Assembly: GCF_018130825.1 (NCBI RefSeq)
Contig: NZ_JAFCJS010000008.1
Span: 124,001-188,000, forward strand
Direction: 5' to 3'
Origin: Bradyrhizobium liaoningense
GTDB lineage: Bacteria > Pseudomonadota > Alphaproteobacteria > Rhizobiales > Xanthobacteraceae
DNA length: 64,000 bases
Each line of letters begins with the position of its first letter. The stretch's first letter is position 1. The notes under the pieces are model-generated. The model was not told where the DNA came from. It did no database searches and worked only from the letters and a program-made list of their open reading frames with translations. The position numbers and the translations under genes were made by a program. Below, in pieces: positions 7,388 to 27,616 of this stretch.

Positions 7388-7474
7388 GGGCTGGTCTGTC
7401 CTTCTGGCGGAAACGGAAGCCGCACGGGCGGCCAGCGCCTTTTACTTCGCTTTCGTTCCGGCAAGAATAGATTT

Positions 7475-7592
7475 CCGTCACCCTGAGGTGGCCGCTTCTT
7501 CAGCGGCCCTCGAAGGGCGACGGCCACAGGCCGGGCCGATTCATCCTTCGAGGCTCGCCGTGCTTTGCACGGCGAGCACCTCAGGATGACGG
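7475..7592. repeat. CACCTCAGGATGACGG dyad repeat, copy 1
   Basis: The outer arms CCGTCACCCTGAGGTG (7475-7490) and CACCTCAGGATGACGG (7577-7592) match with one mismatch. The interior has GGCCGC...GCGGCC, CCTTCGAGG and GCACGGCGAGC dyads. A second copy is at 37857-37963. It lies between the SDR and chemotaxis genes and is non-coding. Confidence 0.85.
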
Positions 7593-7613
7593 GGACAGAG
7601 TAAGGCTGACGAC

Positions 7614-9278
7614 CTACGCCAGCTCAGCCGAGGCGCGCTGCATGTTGGTCGACATGTCCTCCGTCACGATGCTCTGCTCCTCGACCGCGGCGGCGGTGGA
7701 GGCGATGAACTCGTTGACGCCGGCGATCGCGACCTTGATCGCGGTCAGGGAGTGCGCGACGTCGCCGGAGATGGTGTTCAGCGCGTCGATTTCGGTCGTG
7801 ATCGTGTCGGTTGCCTGCTTGGCCTGATTGGCGAGGCTCTTCACCTCGGAGGCGACCACGGCAAAGCCGCGGCCGGCTTCGCCTGCGCGGGCCGATTCGA
7901 TCGTGGCGTTGAGCGCGAGCAGATTGATCTGGCTGGTGATGCCTGAGATCATCTCGACGATGCCGCTCATGGCCTGTGCGGCCGCGGTCAGCTTCTGGGC
8001 CTGGAGGTCGGCGGATTCGACCTTGGTGGTCGCGACCTTGGAGGTCTCGCGCGACTTCGCCATGGTCTGGGAGATCTCGCGGATCGAGGCGCTCATCTCT
8101 TCGCTGCCGGCGGCAACCGCCTCGATCAGCCCGCGCGCATTGTCGGCCTTCTTGCGGCCGATCGCCTGCGCGGTGATGTCGGTGGCGTATTTCACCACCT
8201 TGTACGGCTTGCCGTTGAGGTCGAAGATCGGATTGTAGGAGGCCTGGATCCAGATCTCGCGGCCGCTCTTGGCGATACGCTTGTATTCGGCGGCCTGGTA
8301 CTGACCGCGGTTGAGCGTCTCCCAGAACTGGCGGTAGGCGGCCGAGTTCTTCTCGTCCGGCTCGACGAACATCGAGTGGTGCTGGCCCTTGATCTCGGCC
8401 AGCGAATAGCCCATCGCCTTCAGGAAATTCTCGTTGGCGGTGCGGATGGTGCCGTCCATGTTGAACTCGATCACCGCCTGCGACTTCTGGATCGCGGCGA
8501 GCTGGCCATCATTGTCGGCCGCTTTCATCTTCTGCGCGGTGACGTCGGTCGCGAACTTCACCACCTTGAACGGCTTGCCGTTCTCGTCGAGGATCGGGTT
8601 GTAGGTCGCAAGAATCCAGATCTCCTTGGCGCCCTTGCCGAGCCGCTTGTATTCGGCGGCCTCGAACTCGCCGCGGTTCAGCTTGGCCCAGAACGCAGCA
8701 TAGGCCGGGCTGGCGCGGTCCTCGGGCGTCACGAACATGGAGTGGTGCTTGCCCTTGATCTCGTCGAGCGAATAACCCATCGCGCCCAGGAAATTCTCGT
8801 TGGCGGTGACGATGGTGCCGTCCATGTTGAACTCGATCACGGCCTGCGCGCGATTGATCGCGGCGATCTTGCCGGAATCCTCCATGGTCTTGATCTTGTA
8901 CGCCGTGATGTCCGTGGCGAACTTGATGAAGCTGACCACCTTGCCGTTCTCGTCGCGCAGCGGCGCGTAGGAGGCGTGGACCCAGACTTCCTTGCCGCCC
9001 TTGCCGAAACGCTTGTACTGCGTGGTCTGGAACTCGCCGCGGTTCAGGCTGGCCCAGAAGTCGCGATAGCGGGCGCTGTCGCGCTCCGCCGGACTGACGA
9101 AGATGCTGTGGTGCTTGCCCTTGATCTCGGCGAGCGTGTAGCCGCTCATCTTGAGCAGGTTCTCATTGGCATCGAGGATGGTGCCGTCGAGACCGAATTC
9201 GATGACCGCCTGCGACCGGTCGAGCGCCTCGACCTCTGCGACCGCATGTCTGACTTTCTTGCTTTGAAAATTGAACAC
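7614..9278 (-). CDS. Soluble methyl-accepting chemotaxis protein with three tandem PAS domains
   Basis: The product is 554 residues with no membrane segment, so it is a cytoplasmic transducer. Three PAS domains of about 120 residues each (roughly 10-130, 132-252, 254-375) share the pattern [13 protein letters not shown]...ANENFL...[10 protein letters not shown] methyl-accepting signalling domain follows, with the hairpin-tip sequence [20 protein letters not shown]. It ends soon after the tip domain, so the cytoplasmic helical bundle is short. PAS domains of this type in transducers often sense redox state or oxygen; the ligand here is unknown. The start is GTG at 9278 with GGAG upstream. No che genes are adjacent. 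Confidence 0.9.
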
Positions 9279-21034: not shown

Positions 21035-21994
21035 GTGAAGGTGAACGTCGACAAGACACTCGTTGCGTCGATTGCCCTCCATGTCCTCGTGCTTGGATGG
21101 GGCCTCGTCACCTTTAGCAGCAAGGCCTACATCGCGCCCGAGGAGTCGCTTCCGGTCGACATCATCTCCACCGATCAGCTCGCCAAGATGATGGCTGGGC
21201 AGAAGACCGGCAAGAAGGAAGAGCCGAAGCCCAAGGTCGAGAAGATCGCCGAGGCCAAGCCCGAAGAGGATGCCGTCGGCAAGGTCACCGAGAAGAAAGA
21301 GCTGATCAAGACCAACTCGCAGCCGGAGCCGCCGCCGAAGCCCGTGGAGAAGCCGGTCGAGAAGAAGCCCGAGCCGCCGAAGCCCGTTGCCGAGGCCAAG
21401 CCGAAGGAAGAGCCGAAGCCGCAGGAAAAGAAGCCTGATCCGGCCAAGGAAGATCCGATCGCCGAACTCCAGAAGAAGCTGGACACCAAGAAGCCGCCGC
21501 CGAAGCCGGTCGAGCAGAAGGTCGCGGCGGTGCAGCCGCAGCAGCAGCCGAAGCCGAAGGAGCGCACCTTCGATCCCGCGCAGATCCAGCGCGACCTCGA
21601 CAAGCGCGCCACGACCCGACACGAGCTCGCCGGCTCGACTTTGAATGCGTCGGCTTCGCTGGGATCGACGACCGGGACTGCCGCCAACAACGTCGCGACC
21701 TGGCAAGGTGCGTTCATGTCGGCGGTCAAACGCTGCTTCACGCCCACCTATAACGGACAGGATGCCGATCAATACGAAGCGGACATCGATATCTACATGA
21801 AGATCGATGGAACGCTAGCATCCGAGCCGGTTGTCGTTGCGGCGAAAGGACCGTCCCGGTCGATCGCTCAGGCAGTGGCGGAGAGTGGCAAGCGCGCCAT
21901 CGTGCAATGTCAGGCCTATTCGTTCCTGCCAAAGCAACAATATGACACTTGGAAAACCATTCCGATGCGCTTCGGCCTGAAAGATATGCTGTGA
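21035..21994 (+). CDS. tolA: Cell envelope protein TolA
   Basis: A 319-residue product from GTG at 21035, four bases after tolR. Residues 7-27 are the membrane anchor ([20 protein letters not shown]). A long Lys/Pro/Glu-rich domain (about 55-205) spans the periplasm, and a C-terminal globular domain (about 225-319, with CFTPTYNG and [16 protein letters not shown]) should contact TolB and Pal. The middle is Pro-rich rather than the Ala/Lys/Glu helix of enteric TolA, as is usual in alphaproteobacteria. An earlier ATG (20978) lies within tolR. Confidence 0.9.
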
Positions 21995-22017
21995 CATCCG
22001 AACCAAAGAATTTTGCG

Positions 22018-23382
22018 ATGAATGACATCCGATCGATGAACCGCCGCCGCTTCATGACCATTGGTGGATCGGCGCTGGCGATGCTTGGGGGCGGACCCGC
22101 CTTCGCCCAGGCCCAAAAGCGGCTTGAAATCAATCCCACCGAATTTCGGCCTATTCCGATCGCGATCACCAACTTCGTGCCGGGCTCGCCGTCCGACGGC
22201 GACGTCGGCAATGGCGTCACGCAGGTCATCACCAACAATCTGAAGCGCTCGGGCCTGTTTTCCCCGATCGACCAGGCCGCCTTCATCGAGCGCATCAGCA
22301 ACATCGACGCCGCGCCGCAATTCGAGAACTGGAAGACCATCAACGCGCAGGCGGTCGTCACCGGCCGCATGACGCGGCAACCGGACGGCAGGCTCAAGGC
22401 CGAATTCCGCCTGTGGGACGTCGTCACCGGCCAGCAGCTCGCGGGACAGCAATATTTCACCTCGCCGGAATATTGGCGCCGCATCGCCCACATCATCTCC
22501 GACCAGATCTACGAGCGCATGACCGGCGAAAAGGGCTATTTCGACAGCCGCGTCGTGTTCGTGGACGAGACCGGGCCGAAGGAGCGCCGCGTCAAGCGGC
22601 TCGCGATGATGGACCAGGACGGCGCCAATGTGCGCTATCTGACCCGCGGCTCCGACCTCGTGCTGACGCCGCGCTTCTCGCCGAACTCGCAAGAGATCAC
22701 CTACATGGAGTTCGGCCAGGGCGATCCGAAGGTCTATCTCTTCAACATCGAGACCGGCCAGCGCGAGATCGTCGGCAACTTCCCGGGCATGACCTTCGCG
22801 CCGCGCTTCTCGCCGGACGGCCAGCGCGTGATCATGAGCCTGCAGCAGGGCGGCAATTCCAACCTGTTCGTGATGGATCTGCGCTCGCGCTCGACCACGC
22901 GCCTCACCGACACGCCGGCGATCGACACGTCTCCGTCCTACTCGCCGGACGGCACCCGCATCTGCTTCGAGTCCGATCGCGGTGGCCGGTCGCAGATCTA
23001 TGTGATGGCGGCGGGCGGAGGACAGGCGCAGCGCATCTCCTTCTCCAAGGACGACACCAACGCCAGCTATTCGACACCGGTGTGGTCGCCGAAGGGCGAT
23101 TACATCGCCTTCACCAGGCAAGGCGGCGGACAGTTCTCGATCGGCGTGATGAAGCCTGATGGCAGCGGCGAGCGTCTGCTCACCTCCGGCTTCCACAACG
23201 AGGGCCCGACCTTCTCGCCCAACGGCCGCGTGCTGATGTTCTTCCGCGATCCCGGTGGCAATGGCGGACCGTCGCTGTACTCCGTCGACATCTCCGGCCG
23301 CAACGAGCTGAAGGTGCCGACGCCGGGCTTCGCCTCCGACCCGGCGTGGTCGCCGCTATTGTCCTCGACGGCCGGTCAATAG
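22018..23382 (+). CDS. tolB: Tol-Pal system beta-propeller protein TolB, with a Tat-like signal
   Basis: The product is 454 residues. The N-terminus [20 protein letters not shown], followed by a weakly hydrophobic stretch to AFAQA, is a twin-arginine-type signal peptide rather than a plain Sec one. An N-terminal alpha/beta domain ([13 protein letters not shown]) precedes six propeller blades seen as repeats: [39 protein letters not shown] and [13 protein letters not shown]. It is a periplasmic partner of Pal and TolA in outer-membrane constriction. It starts 23 bp after tolA. Confidence 0.93.
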
Positions 23383-23618: not shown

Positions 23619-25952
23619 ATGCAGCTGGCCGACCAGAAGCAGAGCGATCGAGACGAGCTGGAGCCGATACTCTACGCCGCTCTCATCAACTCTATGGTGC
23701 AGAATTTCTGGGCGATTTTCCTCGGCTCGGCCTCCGCCGCCGTGGCCGCGGTCATGACTGCGCTGAAGACCGGCGACGTCTTGCTGTGGCCGCTCGCATT
23801 TCTGCTGATCGCCATCGGTACCGCGCGCGCGTTCCAGATGCGCGGATACGAGAACCGTGCGCACCCACTGTCGTTCGAGGAAGCCAAGCATCTGGAGCCG
23901 CGCTACTGGATCGGCGCGCTCAGCTATGCGGCGGTACTCGGCATCTGGGCCTTCGTCGTCATCTACAACAACGAGGATCCGGTGGCCGACATGCTCGCTG
24001 TCGCCATCGGCATCGGCTACACCGCCGGCGGCGCCGCCCGCAATTACGGCCAGCCCCGGGTGATCCAGTGGCACGTCGCGCTCGCCTGCGGTCCGATGTC
24101 GCTCGCGCTGCTGCTGCACGGCGGCCCCTACCACGTCGGCCTTGCGATCCTGCTGATGTTCTTCTTCATCGGCTTGAAGAACATCAACCTCAGCCTGCAT
24201 GCGATCTTCGTCAAGGCGCTGACCTCGAGCTTCCGCGAATCCGCGCTGGCGAGCCAGTTCGACACCGCGCTCAACAACATGCCGCACGGCCTGTGCATGT
24301 TTCGCGCCGACGGGCGCCTTGCGGTGATGAACCATCGCTTCGGCCAGCTGATGGATCTGCCAGAGGATCTGGTCAAGCGCGGGGCCACCGCGGCCGACAT
24401 CGTGTCGGCCTGCATCGCCGCGGGCTCCATCTCGGCGGAGAGCGGCAACCAGATCATGGCCGAGATCGCGCATGCGCGGATCTGCGAGATCGTCACCGCC
24501 GATCCGGATCCCTCGCGCGGCCGTACCCTGGCCTGGACCTTCCAGCCGATGACCGGCGGCGGCACCGTGCTGCTGCTCGAAGACATCACCGAACGCACCA
24601 ACGCCGAAGCCCGCATCAGCCATCTCGCCCGCTACGACGAGCTCACCGCGCTGCCCAACCGCGTCTCTTTCCGCGACGAGATCGAGCGCCTGCTGGCCAA
24701 CGCGCACCACGCCGAACGGCTCTCGGCGCTGCTGTTCGTCGACCTCGACCAGTTCAAGCAGGTCAACGACACGCTCGGCCATCCCTGCGGCGACCAGCTC
24801 CTGTGCGCGGTTGCCAACCGCCTGCGCGAGATGCTGCGCCCGGAAGATTTCGTCGCCCGCTTCGGCGGCGACGAGTTCGTCGTGTTCCAGCAGAACATCT
24901 CGTCGGCCGAGGACGCCGCGAGCCTCGCCCGCCGCATCGTCGAGCGGCTCAGCGAGCGCTACCGCATCGACAATCACCTGGTCGAGATCGGCGCCAGCGT
25001 CGGCATCGCGCTGACCTCGCCCGACGGCAAGGTCAGCGCCGACACCCTGCTCAAGAACGCCGACATGGCGCTGTACCGCGCCAAGGCCGACGGCCGCGGC
25101 ACTTTCTGCTTCTTCCGCGATGAGATGGCGGCGACCGTCGAGGCGCGCCGCATCCTCGAGCTCGACCTGCGCAAGGCGCTCGCCAACGAGGAGTTCGAGC
25201 TGTTCTACCAGCCGCTGGTCAATCTGAAGTCCGGCAAGATCACGACCTGCGAGGCGCTGCTGCGCTGGAATCATCCGGTGCGCGGCACGGTTTCGCCGGT
25301 CGACATCATTCCGGTCGCCGAGGACATGGGCCTGATCGTCGATCTCGGCCGCTGGATCCTGCGCCGCGCCTGCATGGAATGCATGAAGTGGCCGGAGGGC
25401 GTCAGCGTCGCCGTCAACTTCTCGCCGCAGCAATTCCACCAGCGCGACGTCCTGAGCGAGATCCGCTACGCGCTGGAAGTCTCGGGGCTTCCGGCGCATC
25501 GCCTCGAGATCGAGATCACCGAGTCCTCGCTGCTGCGCAACACCCAGCTGACCCACGATATCCTGTCGCAGCTGCATGCGCTCGGCGTGCGCATCTCGCT
25601 CGACGATTTCGGCACCGGCTATTCGAGCCTCAGCTACCTGCACAATTTCCCGATGCAGAAGGTGAAGATCGACCGCTCCTTCCTGGAAGGCATCGACACC
25701 GACCGGCCGCTGACGCTGCTCCGCGGCGTGGCACGCCTGTCGGCCGACCTCGGCATGGCGGTCGTGGTCGAGGGCATCGAGACCAACGAGCAGCTCGAGC
25801 TGATCAGCGCCGACGGCACCGTGTCCGAGGCGCAAGGCTATCTGTTCAGCCGTCCGGTGCCCGCCGTGCGGATGCGCCAGCTCCTCAACGCCTCGCATGG
25901 GCGGCGCGGCGAGAGCCTACTCCAGGTCGTGGGCTCGCGCTCCTTCGCCTGA
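23619..25952 (+). CDS. Membrane diguanylate cyclase/phosphodiesterase (PAS-GGDEF-EAL)
   Basis: The product is 777 residues. Several hydrophobic segments in residues 22-195 form a membrane sensor. A PAS-like domain follows (about 205-320, NMPHGLCMFRADGRLAVMNH). The GGDEF motif is intact at 416-420, with an RPED inhibition site five residues before it. The EAL domain has EALLRWNHP at 545 onwards, and DDFGTGYSSLSYL and EGIET later. Both synthesis and breakdown of cyclic di-GMP are therefore possible. It lies between tolB and pal, which are usually neighbours, after a 236-bp gap that suggests its own promoter. Confidence 0.92.
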   Translation: MQLADQKQSDRDELEPILYAALINSMVQNFWAIFLGSASAAVAAVMTALKTGDVLLWPLAFLLIAIGTARAFQMRGYENRAHPLSFEEAKHLEPRYWIGALSYAAVLGIWAFVVIYNNEDPVADMLAVAIGIGYTAGGAARNYGQPRVIQWHVALACGPMSLALLLHGGPYHVGLAILLMFFFIGLKNINLSLHAIFVKALTSSFRESALASQFDTALNNMPHGLCMFRADGRLAVMNHRFGQLMDLPEDLVKRGATAADIVSACIAAGSISAESGNQIMAEIAHARICEIVTADPDPSRGRTLAWTFQPMTGGGTVLLLEDITERTNAEARISHLARYDELTALPNRVSFRDEIERLLANAHHAERLSALLFVDLDQFKQVNDTLGHPCGDQLLCAVANRLREMLRPEDFVARFGGDEFVVFQQNISSAEDAASLARRIVERLSERYRIDNHLVEIGASVGIALTSPDGKVSADTLLKNADMALYRAKADGRGTFCFFRDEMAATVEARRILELDLRKALANEEFELFYQPLVNLKSGKITTCEALLRWNHPVRGTVSPVDIIPVAEDMGLIVDLGRWILRRACMECMKWPEGVSVAVNFSPQQFHQRDVLSEIRYALEVSGLPAHRLEIEITESSLLRNTQLTHDILSQLHALGVRISLDDFGTGYSSLSYLHNFPMQKVKIDRSFLEGIDTDRPLTLLRGVARLSADLGMAVVVEGIETNEQLELISADGTVSEAQGYLFSRPVPAVRMRQLLNASHGRRGESLLQVVGSRSFA

Positions 25953-26133: not shown

Positions 26134-26859
26134 ATGCAGTCCTCAGCCAGATCGATCATTTCGGCTGTTGGACGGGGTGCCGAGCTCCTGACCGACGTCG
26201 ACTATCATCTTGCGGAAACGGCCGCGGAGAAGGAGGAGATCTACAATCTCCGCTATCGCGCCTACTTACGCGAAGGCGCCGTCAAGGAATCTCCGGACGC
26301 GCGCGTCACCGACCAGTATGACGAATTGCCGAACGCGTGGACCTTCGGCGTCTATCTCCGGGGCAAGCTCTGCAGCTCGGTGCGCATCAGCGTGCTGAAC
26401 TCGGAATGGCGCCAGTCGACGTCGGCCGATGTCTTTCCCGATATCCTGCTGCCGCGGCTCGATCGCGGCGAGATCATGATCGACCCGACCCGCTTCGTCG
26501 CCGATCCTGATCAGGTCAAGCGCGTCCCGGAATTGCCCTATCTGACGACCCGGCTCGCCTACATGGCCTGCGAGCATTTCCATGCCGATCTCGGCCTTGC
26601 GATCGTGCGCCCGGAGCACCAGGCCTTCTACCGGCGGGTGTTCCTGCACGAGACCATCGCCGAGCCGAGGCTGGTCCCCGGCCTCACCAAGCCGTTCGGA
26701 CTGATGGCGGCGGACTTCCCGACCTTCCGCAAGAAGGTGTTCGAGCGCTATCCGATCATGCGCTCCACCGCCTTCGAGCGGCGGATGCTGTTCGGGCGCG
26801 GCGGCCAGCGTCAGGTCCCGCAGCGGCGGGTGCTGGTGGCGGACGCCGTTCACGCCTGA
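26134..26859 (+). CDS. FeeM/LuxI-fold N-acyltransferase (acyl amino acid or acyl-homoserine-lactone synthase-like)
   Basis: The product is 241 residues. It has the autoinducer-synthase-like layout: EEIYNLRYRAYLREGAV, then DQYDELPNAWTFGVYLRGKL, CSSVRISVL, and MIDPTRFVADPDQ with a Pro-rich LPYLTTRLAYMACEHFHADL helix. The conserved Arg (YNLRYR), Asp pair and Arg (SSVRIS) of the LuxI/GNAT acyltransferase fold can be placed. It is closer to N-acyl amino acid synthase FeeM-like proteins than to true LuxI, and no LuxR gene is near. It would join an acyl-ACP chain to an amino-acid-like acceptor. Set in the tol-pal cluster behind a CtrA site. Confidence 0.7.
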   Translation: MQSSARSIISAVGRGAELLTDVDYHLAETAAEKEEIYNLRYRAYLREGAVKESPDARVTDQYDELPNAWTFGVYLRGKLCSSVRISVLNSEWRQSTSADVFPDILLPRLDRGEIMIDPTRFVADPDQVKRVPELPYLTTRLAYMACEHFHADLGLAIVRPEHQAFYRRVFLHETIAEPRLVPGLTKPFGLMAADFPTFRKKVFERYPIMRSTAFERRMLFGRGGQRQVPQRRVLVADAVHA

Positions 26860-27127: not shown

Positions 27128-27616
27128 ATGAAACATCCTATGCGTATCCTCCAGGGATTGAAGCTGGCCGCGGTGCTTGCCGTCGCGCTGTCGATGGGCG
27201 CCTGCGCCAACAAGAATGCTGCGACGGATGCGATGGCCAATGCGGCAACGCCCGGCAGCCAGCAGGACTTCGTCGTGAACGTGGGCGACCGCGTGTTCTT
27301 CGAAAGCGACCAGACCGATCTGACCCCGCAGGCGATCGTCACCCTCGAGAAGCAGGCGCAGTGGCTGCAGAGCTATCCGCGCTACTCCTTCACCATCGAA
27401 GGTCATGCCGACGAGCGCGGCACCCGCGAATACAACATCGCGCTCGGCGCGCGCCGCGCCCAGTCGGTGCGTTCGTTCCTCGCCTCGCGCGGCATCGATC
27501 CGAACCGCATGCGCACGATCTCCTACGGCAAGGAGCGGCCGGTGGCCGTCTGTAACGACATCTCCTGCTGGTCGCAGAACCGCCGCGCCGTCACCGTGCT
27601 GAACGCGAGCTCCTGA
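27128..27616 (+). CDS. pal: Peptidoglycan-associated lipoprotein Pal
   Basis: The product is 162 residues. The lipoprotein signal ends in the lipobox SMGAC (mature Cys). The OmpA_C domain carries VFFESDQTDLTPQAIVTLEK and FTIEGHADERGTREYNIALG, the peptidoglycan-binding signature, and GKERPVAVC near the end. It anchors the outer membrane to the wall and is recycled by TolQRAB. GGAGG precedes the ATG; MRILQG at 27140 is an alternative start. A terminator follows. Confidence 0.95.
   Translation: MKHPMRILQGLKLAAVLAVALSMGACANKNAATDAMANAATPGSQQDFVVNVGDRVFFESDQTDLTPQAIVTLEKQAQWLQSYPRYSFTIEGHADERGTREYNIALGARRAQSVRSFLASRGIDPNRMRTISYGKERPVAVCNDISCWSQNRRAVTVLNASS

Follow-up and report, generated by a model that had tools for sequence, protein, structure and literature searches.

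A FeeM-type synthase gene and its membrane PAS-GGDEF-EAL neighbour in Bradyrhizobium: a putative signal-receptor pair with matched alleles

Described systems and the tolB-pal interval

The signal of the six-TM receptor CqsS is made by CqsA, a PLP enzyme, and the output of CqsS is a kinase. RpfF, the synthase of the RpfF/RpfR system (BDSF; Burkholderia, Cronobacter), is a crotonase-fold enzyme and yields free cis-2 fatty acids. In the available part of one source, RpfR is described as a PAS-GGDEF-EAL receptor that links an acyl-derived signal to c-di-GMP and binds this signal in its PAS domain (PMC6361424), and the wording 'signal/sensor gene pair' is used for RpfF/RpfR in the available text of another (PMC4698668). 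For the ComQXPA system of Bacillus subtilis, which combines a peptide signal with a histidine kinase, the accessible parts of two papers describe an N-terminal membrane domain of ComP that is markedly variable beside a conserved cytoplasmic domain (PMC4008528) and a comQXP polymorphism tied to pherotypes (PMC4408185). When the 6TM domain of CqsS is grafted on an adenylate cyclase, the cyclase responds to CAI-1 (PMC4821796, available part), so that a six-helix domain can serve as the receptor for a signal of this kind. FeeM-type synthases were found in environmental DNA and are surfactant makers for which a messenger role is only proposed, and Nas343 and Nas354 carry a fused PilZ domain; the available part of the same source gives a catalytic role to FeeM Glu95, and no mention of a GGDEF-EAL partner of FeeM/Nas synthases was found in that part (PMC4897644).

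The window, i.e. the whole 64,000-nucleotide stretch of Bradyrhizobium liaoningense DNA analysed here, contains two genes between tolB (21949..23382, + strand; TIGR02800, 2.7e-140) and pal (27128..27616, +; TIGR02802, 7.3e-41), the two flanks being used as controls below. The first is a gene for a 6TM-PAS_7-GGDEF-EAL protein of 777 aa (23619..25952, +; Pfam), a putative cognate receptor and c-di-GMP enzyme, and the second, on the same strand and 181 bases away, is a feeM-like gene (26134..26859, +; 241 aa), a putative signal synthase whose product is predicted to be an N-acyl amino acid synthase with a GNAT/LuxI-type fold. A sequence-only reading of the window had placed a 241-residue synthase between tolB and pal with no LuxR partner. 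The flanks were right, and the lack of LuxR is true as far as seen, but feeM is not the sole gene of the interval: the overlooked 6TM-PAS-GGDEF-EAL gene is the functionally telling neighbour of feeM, and the partner is a membrane c-di-GMP enzyme.

The feeM ORF starts with ATG, with 'aaggag' located 6-11 nt 5' of the start codon, and its product belongs to Pfam FeeM (PF21926; E 1.1e-46, 158.9 bits against a cut-off of 27), while the LuxI family PF00765 (Autoind_synth) scores 16.3 bits, below its cut-off of 24. It is the only FeeM match above cut-off in the 8.08-Mb genome. The ORF and its synthase motifs, which are far above chance, were read correctly from the letters, and the Arg/Asp/Arg positions are indeed conserved among orthologues, as R40, Y44, D60, R84, D117, R120, R159, H162, F165, and Y166 are invariant in all 91 aligned genus sequences including that of the window. 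The proposed FeeM/LuxI-type acyltransferase fold also agrees with structure prediction, in which the AlphaFold2 model (AF2; mean pLDDT 84.1, pTM 0.81) has FeeM 2g0b as its top match in the PDB (Foldseek 2e-11; Z 19.6 (VIA), rmsd 2.7, 176 aligned, 14% identity). The next matches are the acyl-homoserine lactone synthases RpaI (Z 16.7) and TofI (Z 16.1), and LasI (Z 15.5) and BjaI (Z 15.4) score like ordinary GNAT enzymes (1xeb 15.6, 5jph 15.5). At the level of profiles, 2g0b was absent from the phmmer results of P0001 and L341 and from profile A1 and is listed with A5 only. In a weak profile alignment with 2g0b (E 0.0073), a FeeM glutamate falls in the column of D117, a position that is Asp in 91/91 genus sequences and, in another alignment, lies opposite the TofI glutamate. 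Collectively, the feeM ORF is real, and its product is modelled with the fold of the N-acyl amino acid synthase FeeM. A scan limited to promoters of the sigma-70 type gave no promoter-like site, and one terminator-like site was found against 3.0 expected. An AT-rich stretch amid a GC-rich region lies 5' of feeM (window:26041-26075; ttgcttcgttgttaagaagctgttaataaatcatc) and is possibly a promoter for feeM alone.

In the partner protein, no Pfam family matches the first 212 residues. Residues 1-210 (23619..24248, +) make up a hypervariable membrane sensor domain with six long model helices (30-51, 56-78, 86-117, 121-141, 146-167, and 170-219; sensor/PAS model with mean pLDDT 82.4 and pTM 0.58), which we interpret as membrane spans; a rough hydropathy count gives five. 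Fold comparison of the membrane part of the TM-PAS model gave weak matches only, with Z values of 11.9 for AC9 and 11.7 for ImcA, most of the other hits being PAS domains. The PAS_7 domain (residues 218-330; 24270..24608, +) is intermediate in variability, and the GGDEF and EAL output domains (residues 337-746; 24627..25856, +) are conserved. All 87 genus sequences carry the motifs GGDEF, EAL, and DDFGTGYSS as well as the I-site (RPED at residue 407), and the two c-di-GMP activities, synthesis by GGDEF and breakdown by EAL, may therefore both be intact.

Compared with the described systems, the locus resembles RpfF/RpfR in that a putative synthase of an acyl-derived signal has, as the product of an adjacent gene, a putative receptor of PAS-GGDEF-EAL type whose motifs are intact. 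However, the synthase here is of the FeeM/GNAT type, in contrast to the crotonase-fold RpfF, and the part that co-varies most with it is the six-helix membrane domain, the signal of RpfR being bound in the PAS domain. The polymorphic, putatively signal-making gene and the variable receptor membrane domain beside a conserved cytoplasmic one are similar to those of ComQXPA, whereas acyl-transfer and c-di-GMP enzymes take the place of peptide and kinase and the pattern is genus-wide. The predicted six-TM design of the putative receptor, for an acyl-derived signal, recalls that of CqsS and other receptors of lipophilic autoinducers, but the output is GGDEF-EAL. With the long-chain N-acyl amino acid synthases FeeM, NasY, and Nas354 the product of feeM shares the Pfam family, the fold, and, by the weak alignment, an acidic residue facing a FeeM glutamate, although this residue is Asp (D117) instead of Glu.

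Co-variation and history of the alleles

Ninety loci of the genus were compared, 80 hand-picked to span identity classes and ten from the family set, so that class frequencies are not estimates. Together with the window they give 91 sequences, 73 of which, with all parts present, were used for distances; L129 was also left out, and L152 and L153 are second copies. Among the 73 loci, the median pairwise identity is 0.47 for the sensor domain, 0.68 for PAS, 0.88 for GGDEF, 0.94 for EAL, and 0.67 for FeeM, and in the flanks it is 0.81 (TolB), 0.76 (CpoB), 0.74 (TilS), 0.91 (Pal), 0.92 (TolQ), and 0.97 (FtsH). FeeM is less conserved than every flank, TilS and CpoB being only somewhat higher, and the distinctive feature is the pattern of the variability rather than its level. 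The distances of FeeM and sensor correlate with an r of 0.91 over the 73 loci, and the partial r given the six flanks, GGDEF, and EAL is 0.90, a value reached by none of 2000 permutations (the largest gave 0.14). With the flank distances, FeeM shows r of 0.24-0.33; the partial r with CpoB, TilS, and TolB is 0.01-0.08 for FeeM and 0.00-0.06 for the sensor, and over all pairs that of EAL and GGDEF with FeeM is 0.17 and 0.26, respectively.

A greedy matching into 36 disjoint closest pairs, by which shared ancestry is reduced though not fully removed, gave r values with FeeM of 0.97 for the sensor (p 2e-22), 0.88 for PAS, 0.65 for GGDEF, and 0.57 for EAL, and of 0.23, 0.25, and 0.24 for TolB, CpoB, and TilS. 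Correlation with the flank mean in these pairs is 0.56 for GGDEF, 0.62 for EAL, 0.28 for the sensor, and 0.27 for FeeM; the output domains track FeeM and the flank mean to a similar degree, and therefore some linkage is present. In 30-residue segments of the partner, the first 210 residues show a partial r with FeeM of 0.78-0.87; the values are 0.56, 0.52, 0.47, and 0.42 across PAS and -0.04 to 0.24 in GGDEF-EAL, i.e. the association drops at the membrane boundary. On the side of FeeM, co-variation extends across nearly the whole enzyme (0.51-0.78 per segment).

The same pattern is seen in DNA alignments of five genome pairs taken from the most discordant, where identity is 83-99% in TolB, 51-75% in the sensor, mostly above 90% in GGDEF-EAL, 57-72% in FeeM, and 89-98% in Pal, giving two separate valleys. 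It is clearest in the pair L116/L108, with 93-99% in TolB, 59-70% in the sensor, 82-99% in PAS, 91-98% in GGDEF-EAL, 70-72% in FeeM, and 97-98% in Pal. Sorted into same and different classes by limits of our own choice, the 137 pairs with a mean flank identity of at least 95% comprise 57 in which FeeM and sensor are both the same, 71 in which both are different, one mismatch, and eight intermediates; all 2628 genus pairs comprise 279 both alike, 1879 both different, 11 mismatched, and 459 intermediate. L127, which supplies mismatches, has the same nearest genomes (L123 and L124) for both FeeM and sensor, and others for EAL. Sensor and FeeM are swapped together in near-identical backgrounds, and synthase and sensor are inherited as matched alleles despite the conserved GGDEF-EAL stretch of ~1.2 kb between them.

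A general habit of GGDEF/EAL sensor domains was considered and rejected on a control in which the genome of the window (G000) was compared with G024. Use of 20 of 23 and 20 of 26 other EAL matches gave 15 reciprocal-best pairs, the first parts of which were cut by fixed offsets, six of the 15 having no hydrophobic span. Their GGDEF-EAL identity is 0.80-0.98 and their first-part identity 0.74-0.97 (14 measurable of 15; 0.82-0.97 in the nine with at least two hydrophobic spans), versus 0.98 and 0.39, respectively, in the FeeM-linked pair.

For dN/dS, ten of the 36 disjoint pairs were taken as within a class (FeeM distance 0.01-0.16) and 16 as between classes (FeeM distance >0.25, flank distance <0.08). 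The median dS between classes is 1.26 for FeeM, 1.14 for the sensor, and 0.91 for PAS, and in the same 16 pairs it is 0.29 for TolB, 0.15 for Pal, 0.35 for GGDEF, and 0.30 for EAL. Judged by the within-class dN/dS of 0.048 (FeeM) and 0.088 (sensor), selection within classes is purifying; the between-class values of 0.22 and 0.49, respectively, lie below 1 and therefore do not point directly to positive selection. Most simply, the alleles would be old and functional and have been moved among genomes by recombination. The PAS alleles look old too, and the specificity region may reach beyond the membrane domain. Of the 70 splits in the trees, 28 are common to FeeM and sensor, compared to 10 for sensor and flanks, 11 for FeeM and flanks, and 13 for sensor and output domains. 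Among the well-supported splits, 23 of the 32 for FeeM and 24 of the 30 for the sensor conflict with the flanks; FeeM contradicts 8 of these 30 sensor splits, the match being imperfect.

Other sources of the variability were also considered. Relaxed selection or a pseudogene was rejected on the within-class dN/dS of FeeM and the invariant motifs, and fast evolution in place on the between-class dS above 1, which is near saturation and rough. Phage or bacteriocin pressure at tol was rejected because TolB and Pal are less diverged, and an enzyme with no predicted export would not be expected to follow such pressure.

Distribution of the gene pair

In a family survey of regions from 40 of the 84 FeeM-matching genomes, the GGDEF-EAL gene adjoins feeM in 37 of the 40 loci: 24 loci are in the tol-pal cluster, 13 have the pair elsewhere, and three have no partner nearby. 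The last three are from G029 (L061), where the sensor is on another contig, G017 (L071), where the locus is at a contig edge, and G018 (L072); no sensor match was found genome-wide in G017 and G018. The sensor domain of G029 is part of a PAS-GGDEF-EAL protein of 1152 aa with an N-terminal extension (L287:4458-7913, +), encoded on a contig different from that of FeeM. Across 198 family genomes, 82 have both FeeM and sensor, two FeeM only, 16 sensor only, and 98 neither, the sensor-only genomes comprising two that are cut by contig ends (L285, L286), 11 with weaker relatives (E 1e-42 to 4e-34), and three with relatives weaker still. Of the 265 genus genomes, 260 have FeeM and 263 the sensor; among the 251 good genomes the counts are 249 and 250, respectively. 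Four genomes (G421, G235, G211, and G279) have a distance of 7-15 kb instead of ~1.9 kb from the end of the sensor domain to feeM, with both kept.

The survey of tolB-X-pal synteny suggested by the sequence-only reading found the full gene order in 81 of the 90 genus loci. Among named genomes, the best 80 of 263 loci were scanned, 76 of those 80 being from Bradyrhizobium, and the whole order TolQ-R-A-B, GGDEF-EAL, FeeM, Pal, CpoB, TilS, FtsH is present in 60 of these best 80. The other 20 are 15 short loci without the end genes, L210 and L228 without an upstream partner nearby, L236 with the pair elsewhere, and L246 and L252 with FeeM alone. At the level of the order, FeeM occurs in 79 of 397 genomes. 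The best 30 order-level loci all have an adjacent GGDEF-EAL gene (30/30), and 13 of them belong to other families and show no tol or pal match within flanks of only 1.5 kb, which are too short to show the membrane domain except in L321. Another 20 loci from 19 genomes were chosen by hand among the weaker matches in other families; 15 of them have an adjacent partner matching the sensor HMM, and no tol or pal match was found in these 20; L324, L334, L341, and L343 have no adjacent sensor match, and L342 has a GGDEF-EAL gene nearby without the sensor. In L321 and L326 the pair is arranged head to head. The pair was found in eight families of the order (f1, f6, f16, f20, f24, f29, f30, and f35; in f29 and f30 by output domains only), and, within the set of loci studied, its placement in tol-pal is confined to the family of the window. 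The conserved unit is the pair of feeM and the 6TM-PAS-GGDEF-EAL gene, and not its Tol-Pal placement.

A second FeeM copy with a C-terminal extension of ~150 residues is present in G201 and G292 (L153:7138-8277, -; L152 about 7440-8613, +) and is followed by an ORF of 207-210 aa (L153:6518-7141, -; L152:8610-9242, +) in which a DIVIKG...EAK stretch looks, by eye, like that of a PD-(D/E)xK nuclease. Pfam gave no match for this ORF, and padloc gave 0 hits for the fused FeeM of L153 and both following ORFs.

Proposed signalling and rival explanations

Matched parts across a conserved stretch, in recombining surroundings, are as in co-diversifying signal/receptor systems, and FeeM is therefore read as the synthase and residues 1-210 of its partner as the receptor. 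We give a probability of about two in three to the reading that feeM and the upstream gene are a cognate signal-synthase/receptor pair with c-di-GMP output and many specificity types, which would operate in the manner of RpfF/RpfR or ComQXP with components unrelated to theirs. According to its family and fold, FeeM would take an acyl chain from acyl-ACP or acyl-CoA and join it to an amino acid or another amine of that kind. The resulting lipophilic N-acyl product could be detected by the partner through its six-helix membrane domain, perhaps together with PAS. Given the intact motifs, sensing would shift the balance between synthesis and breakdown of c-di-GMP in GGDEF-EAL, and could thereby affect biofilm, motility, or surface behaviour. 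Synthase and sensor alleles would stay matched under selection for a common specificity (pherotypes), while recombination would homogenise the flanks and output domains, but not the synthase, the sensor, and, in part, PAS. In this scheme we infer the catalysis, the product, its binding, the direction of the c-di-GMP effect, and any cell-to-cell role.

The main rival, which we consider unlikely, is a synthase-receptor contact, in which the 6TM protein binds and regulates FeeM at the membrane, as the FI domain of RpfR binds RpfF, and FeeM makes a membrane aminolipid or a surfactant with no signalling role. Precedents could be found in the available parts of two sources, as RpfR binds and inhibits its synthase (PMC6361424), and PilZ-fused FeeM-type synthases suggest a control of synthesis by c-di-GMP (PMC4897644); the spread of co-variation over nearly the whole of FeeM is also what a surface or whole-allele effect would give. 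However, interfaces seldom drive old and repeatedly exchanged allele classes such as these, with dS above 1 in backgrounds of 0.15-0.35, a housekeeping lipid would need no specificity types, and co-variation runs along the whole membrane domain and not in some segments only. Contact and signal could also hold together. Exchange of the module as one unit, by which FeeM and sensor would agree through physical linkage alone, is in line with the adjacency of the genes, with the movement of alleles by recombination that dS points to, and with the output domains tracking FeeM (EAL 0.57, GGDEF 0.65) about as they track the flanks (0.62 and 0.56) in the 36 disjoint pairs. But under linkage alone the agreement of the middle with FeeM should be no poorer than that of the far sensor, whereas the intervening GGDEF-EAL shows identity plateaus, a dS of 0.30-0.35 that is nearly at flank level (TolB 0.29), and little partial correlation with FeeM (EAL 0.17, GGDEF 0.26; -0.04 to 0.24 per segment); both genes are also kept in the four genomes where they are 7-15 kb apart. 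Simple linkage is disfavoured, and we regard it as improbable.

An equally poor prospect, in our judgement, is a LuxI-type acyl-homoserine lactone synthase with an unusual receptor. The conserved residues do occur in LuxI-like order, and TofI, RpaI, LasI, and BjaI come up among the structural hits after FeeM, but FeeM leads by ~3 Z units, the Autoind_synth score stays below cut-off beside 158.9 bits for FeeM, and the residue facing the TofI glutamate is Asp in all 91 sequences. Least credible, with hardly any weight left to it, is an acyl signal tied to the constriction of the envelope by Tol-Pal, as the sequence-only reading had imagined from the position of the gene. The full tol-pal order in 81/90 genus loci and the tol-pal cluster in 24/40 family loci are in its favour; against it, 13 of the 40 family loci and the 13 loci outside the family (the latter judged on 1.5-kb flanks) have the pair without tol/pal, and FeeM distances hardly follow those of TolB or Pal.

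Returning to the signal-receptor reading, its extended form is a widespread cell-cell system of the order Hyphomicrobiales, in which a FeeM-made lipid of the N-acyl amino acid type would act through a six-helix receptor on c-di-GMP, nearly universal in Bradyrhizobium, with at least a dozen pherotypes that balancing selection would maintain and recombination would spread; we see the chances for and against this form as even. Each component is already known singly: FeeM enzymes, acyl-signal receptors with GGDEF-EAL, pherotypes, and, via PilZ fusion, a connection between FeeM-type enzymes and c-di-GMP. What would be new is the combination of FeeM, a membrane GGDEF-EAL receptor, and pherotypes, across an order and near-universal in a genus, of which no description was found in the open-access literature. 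A search of this literature found no paper joining FeeM with GGDEF and none on PF21926; N-acyl amino acids and c-di-GMP are mentioned together in PMC4897644 and PMC5539150, papers on tolB and diguanylate cyclases in Bradyrhizobium are unrelated by their titles, and a paper on a Bradyrhizobium autoinducer synthase and GGDEF is, in its available part, an ordinary luxI genome note (PMC2765452). If the reading is true, the co-inherited membrane receptor would give a messenger role to FeeM-type products, and a lipid signal would be led straight into c-di-GMP by a receptor type unlike RpfR in nearly all Bradyrhizobium, which are legume symbionts and soil bacteria. The matched alleles would then show pheromone-type diversification at the scale of a genus in Gram-negative bacteria.

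Two side observations concern relatives of the single components. The most divergent FeeM of the family (L289:5432-6790, -; G018) lies beside a class I/II PLP aminotransferase in a genome with no sensor match, and may have another product or partner. Conversely, 11 genomes of g10 and g34 (L274-L284) have a weaker 6TM-PAS-GGDEF-EAL relative and no FeeM; the neighbours of three of these relatives were looked up and are DUF1499 (two, in g34) and DUF2336 (one, in g10), and the FeeM-less relatives might be solo receptors.
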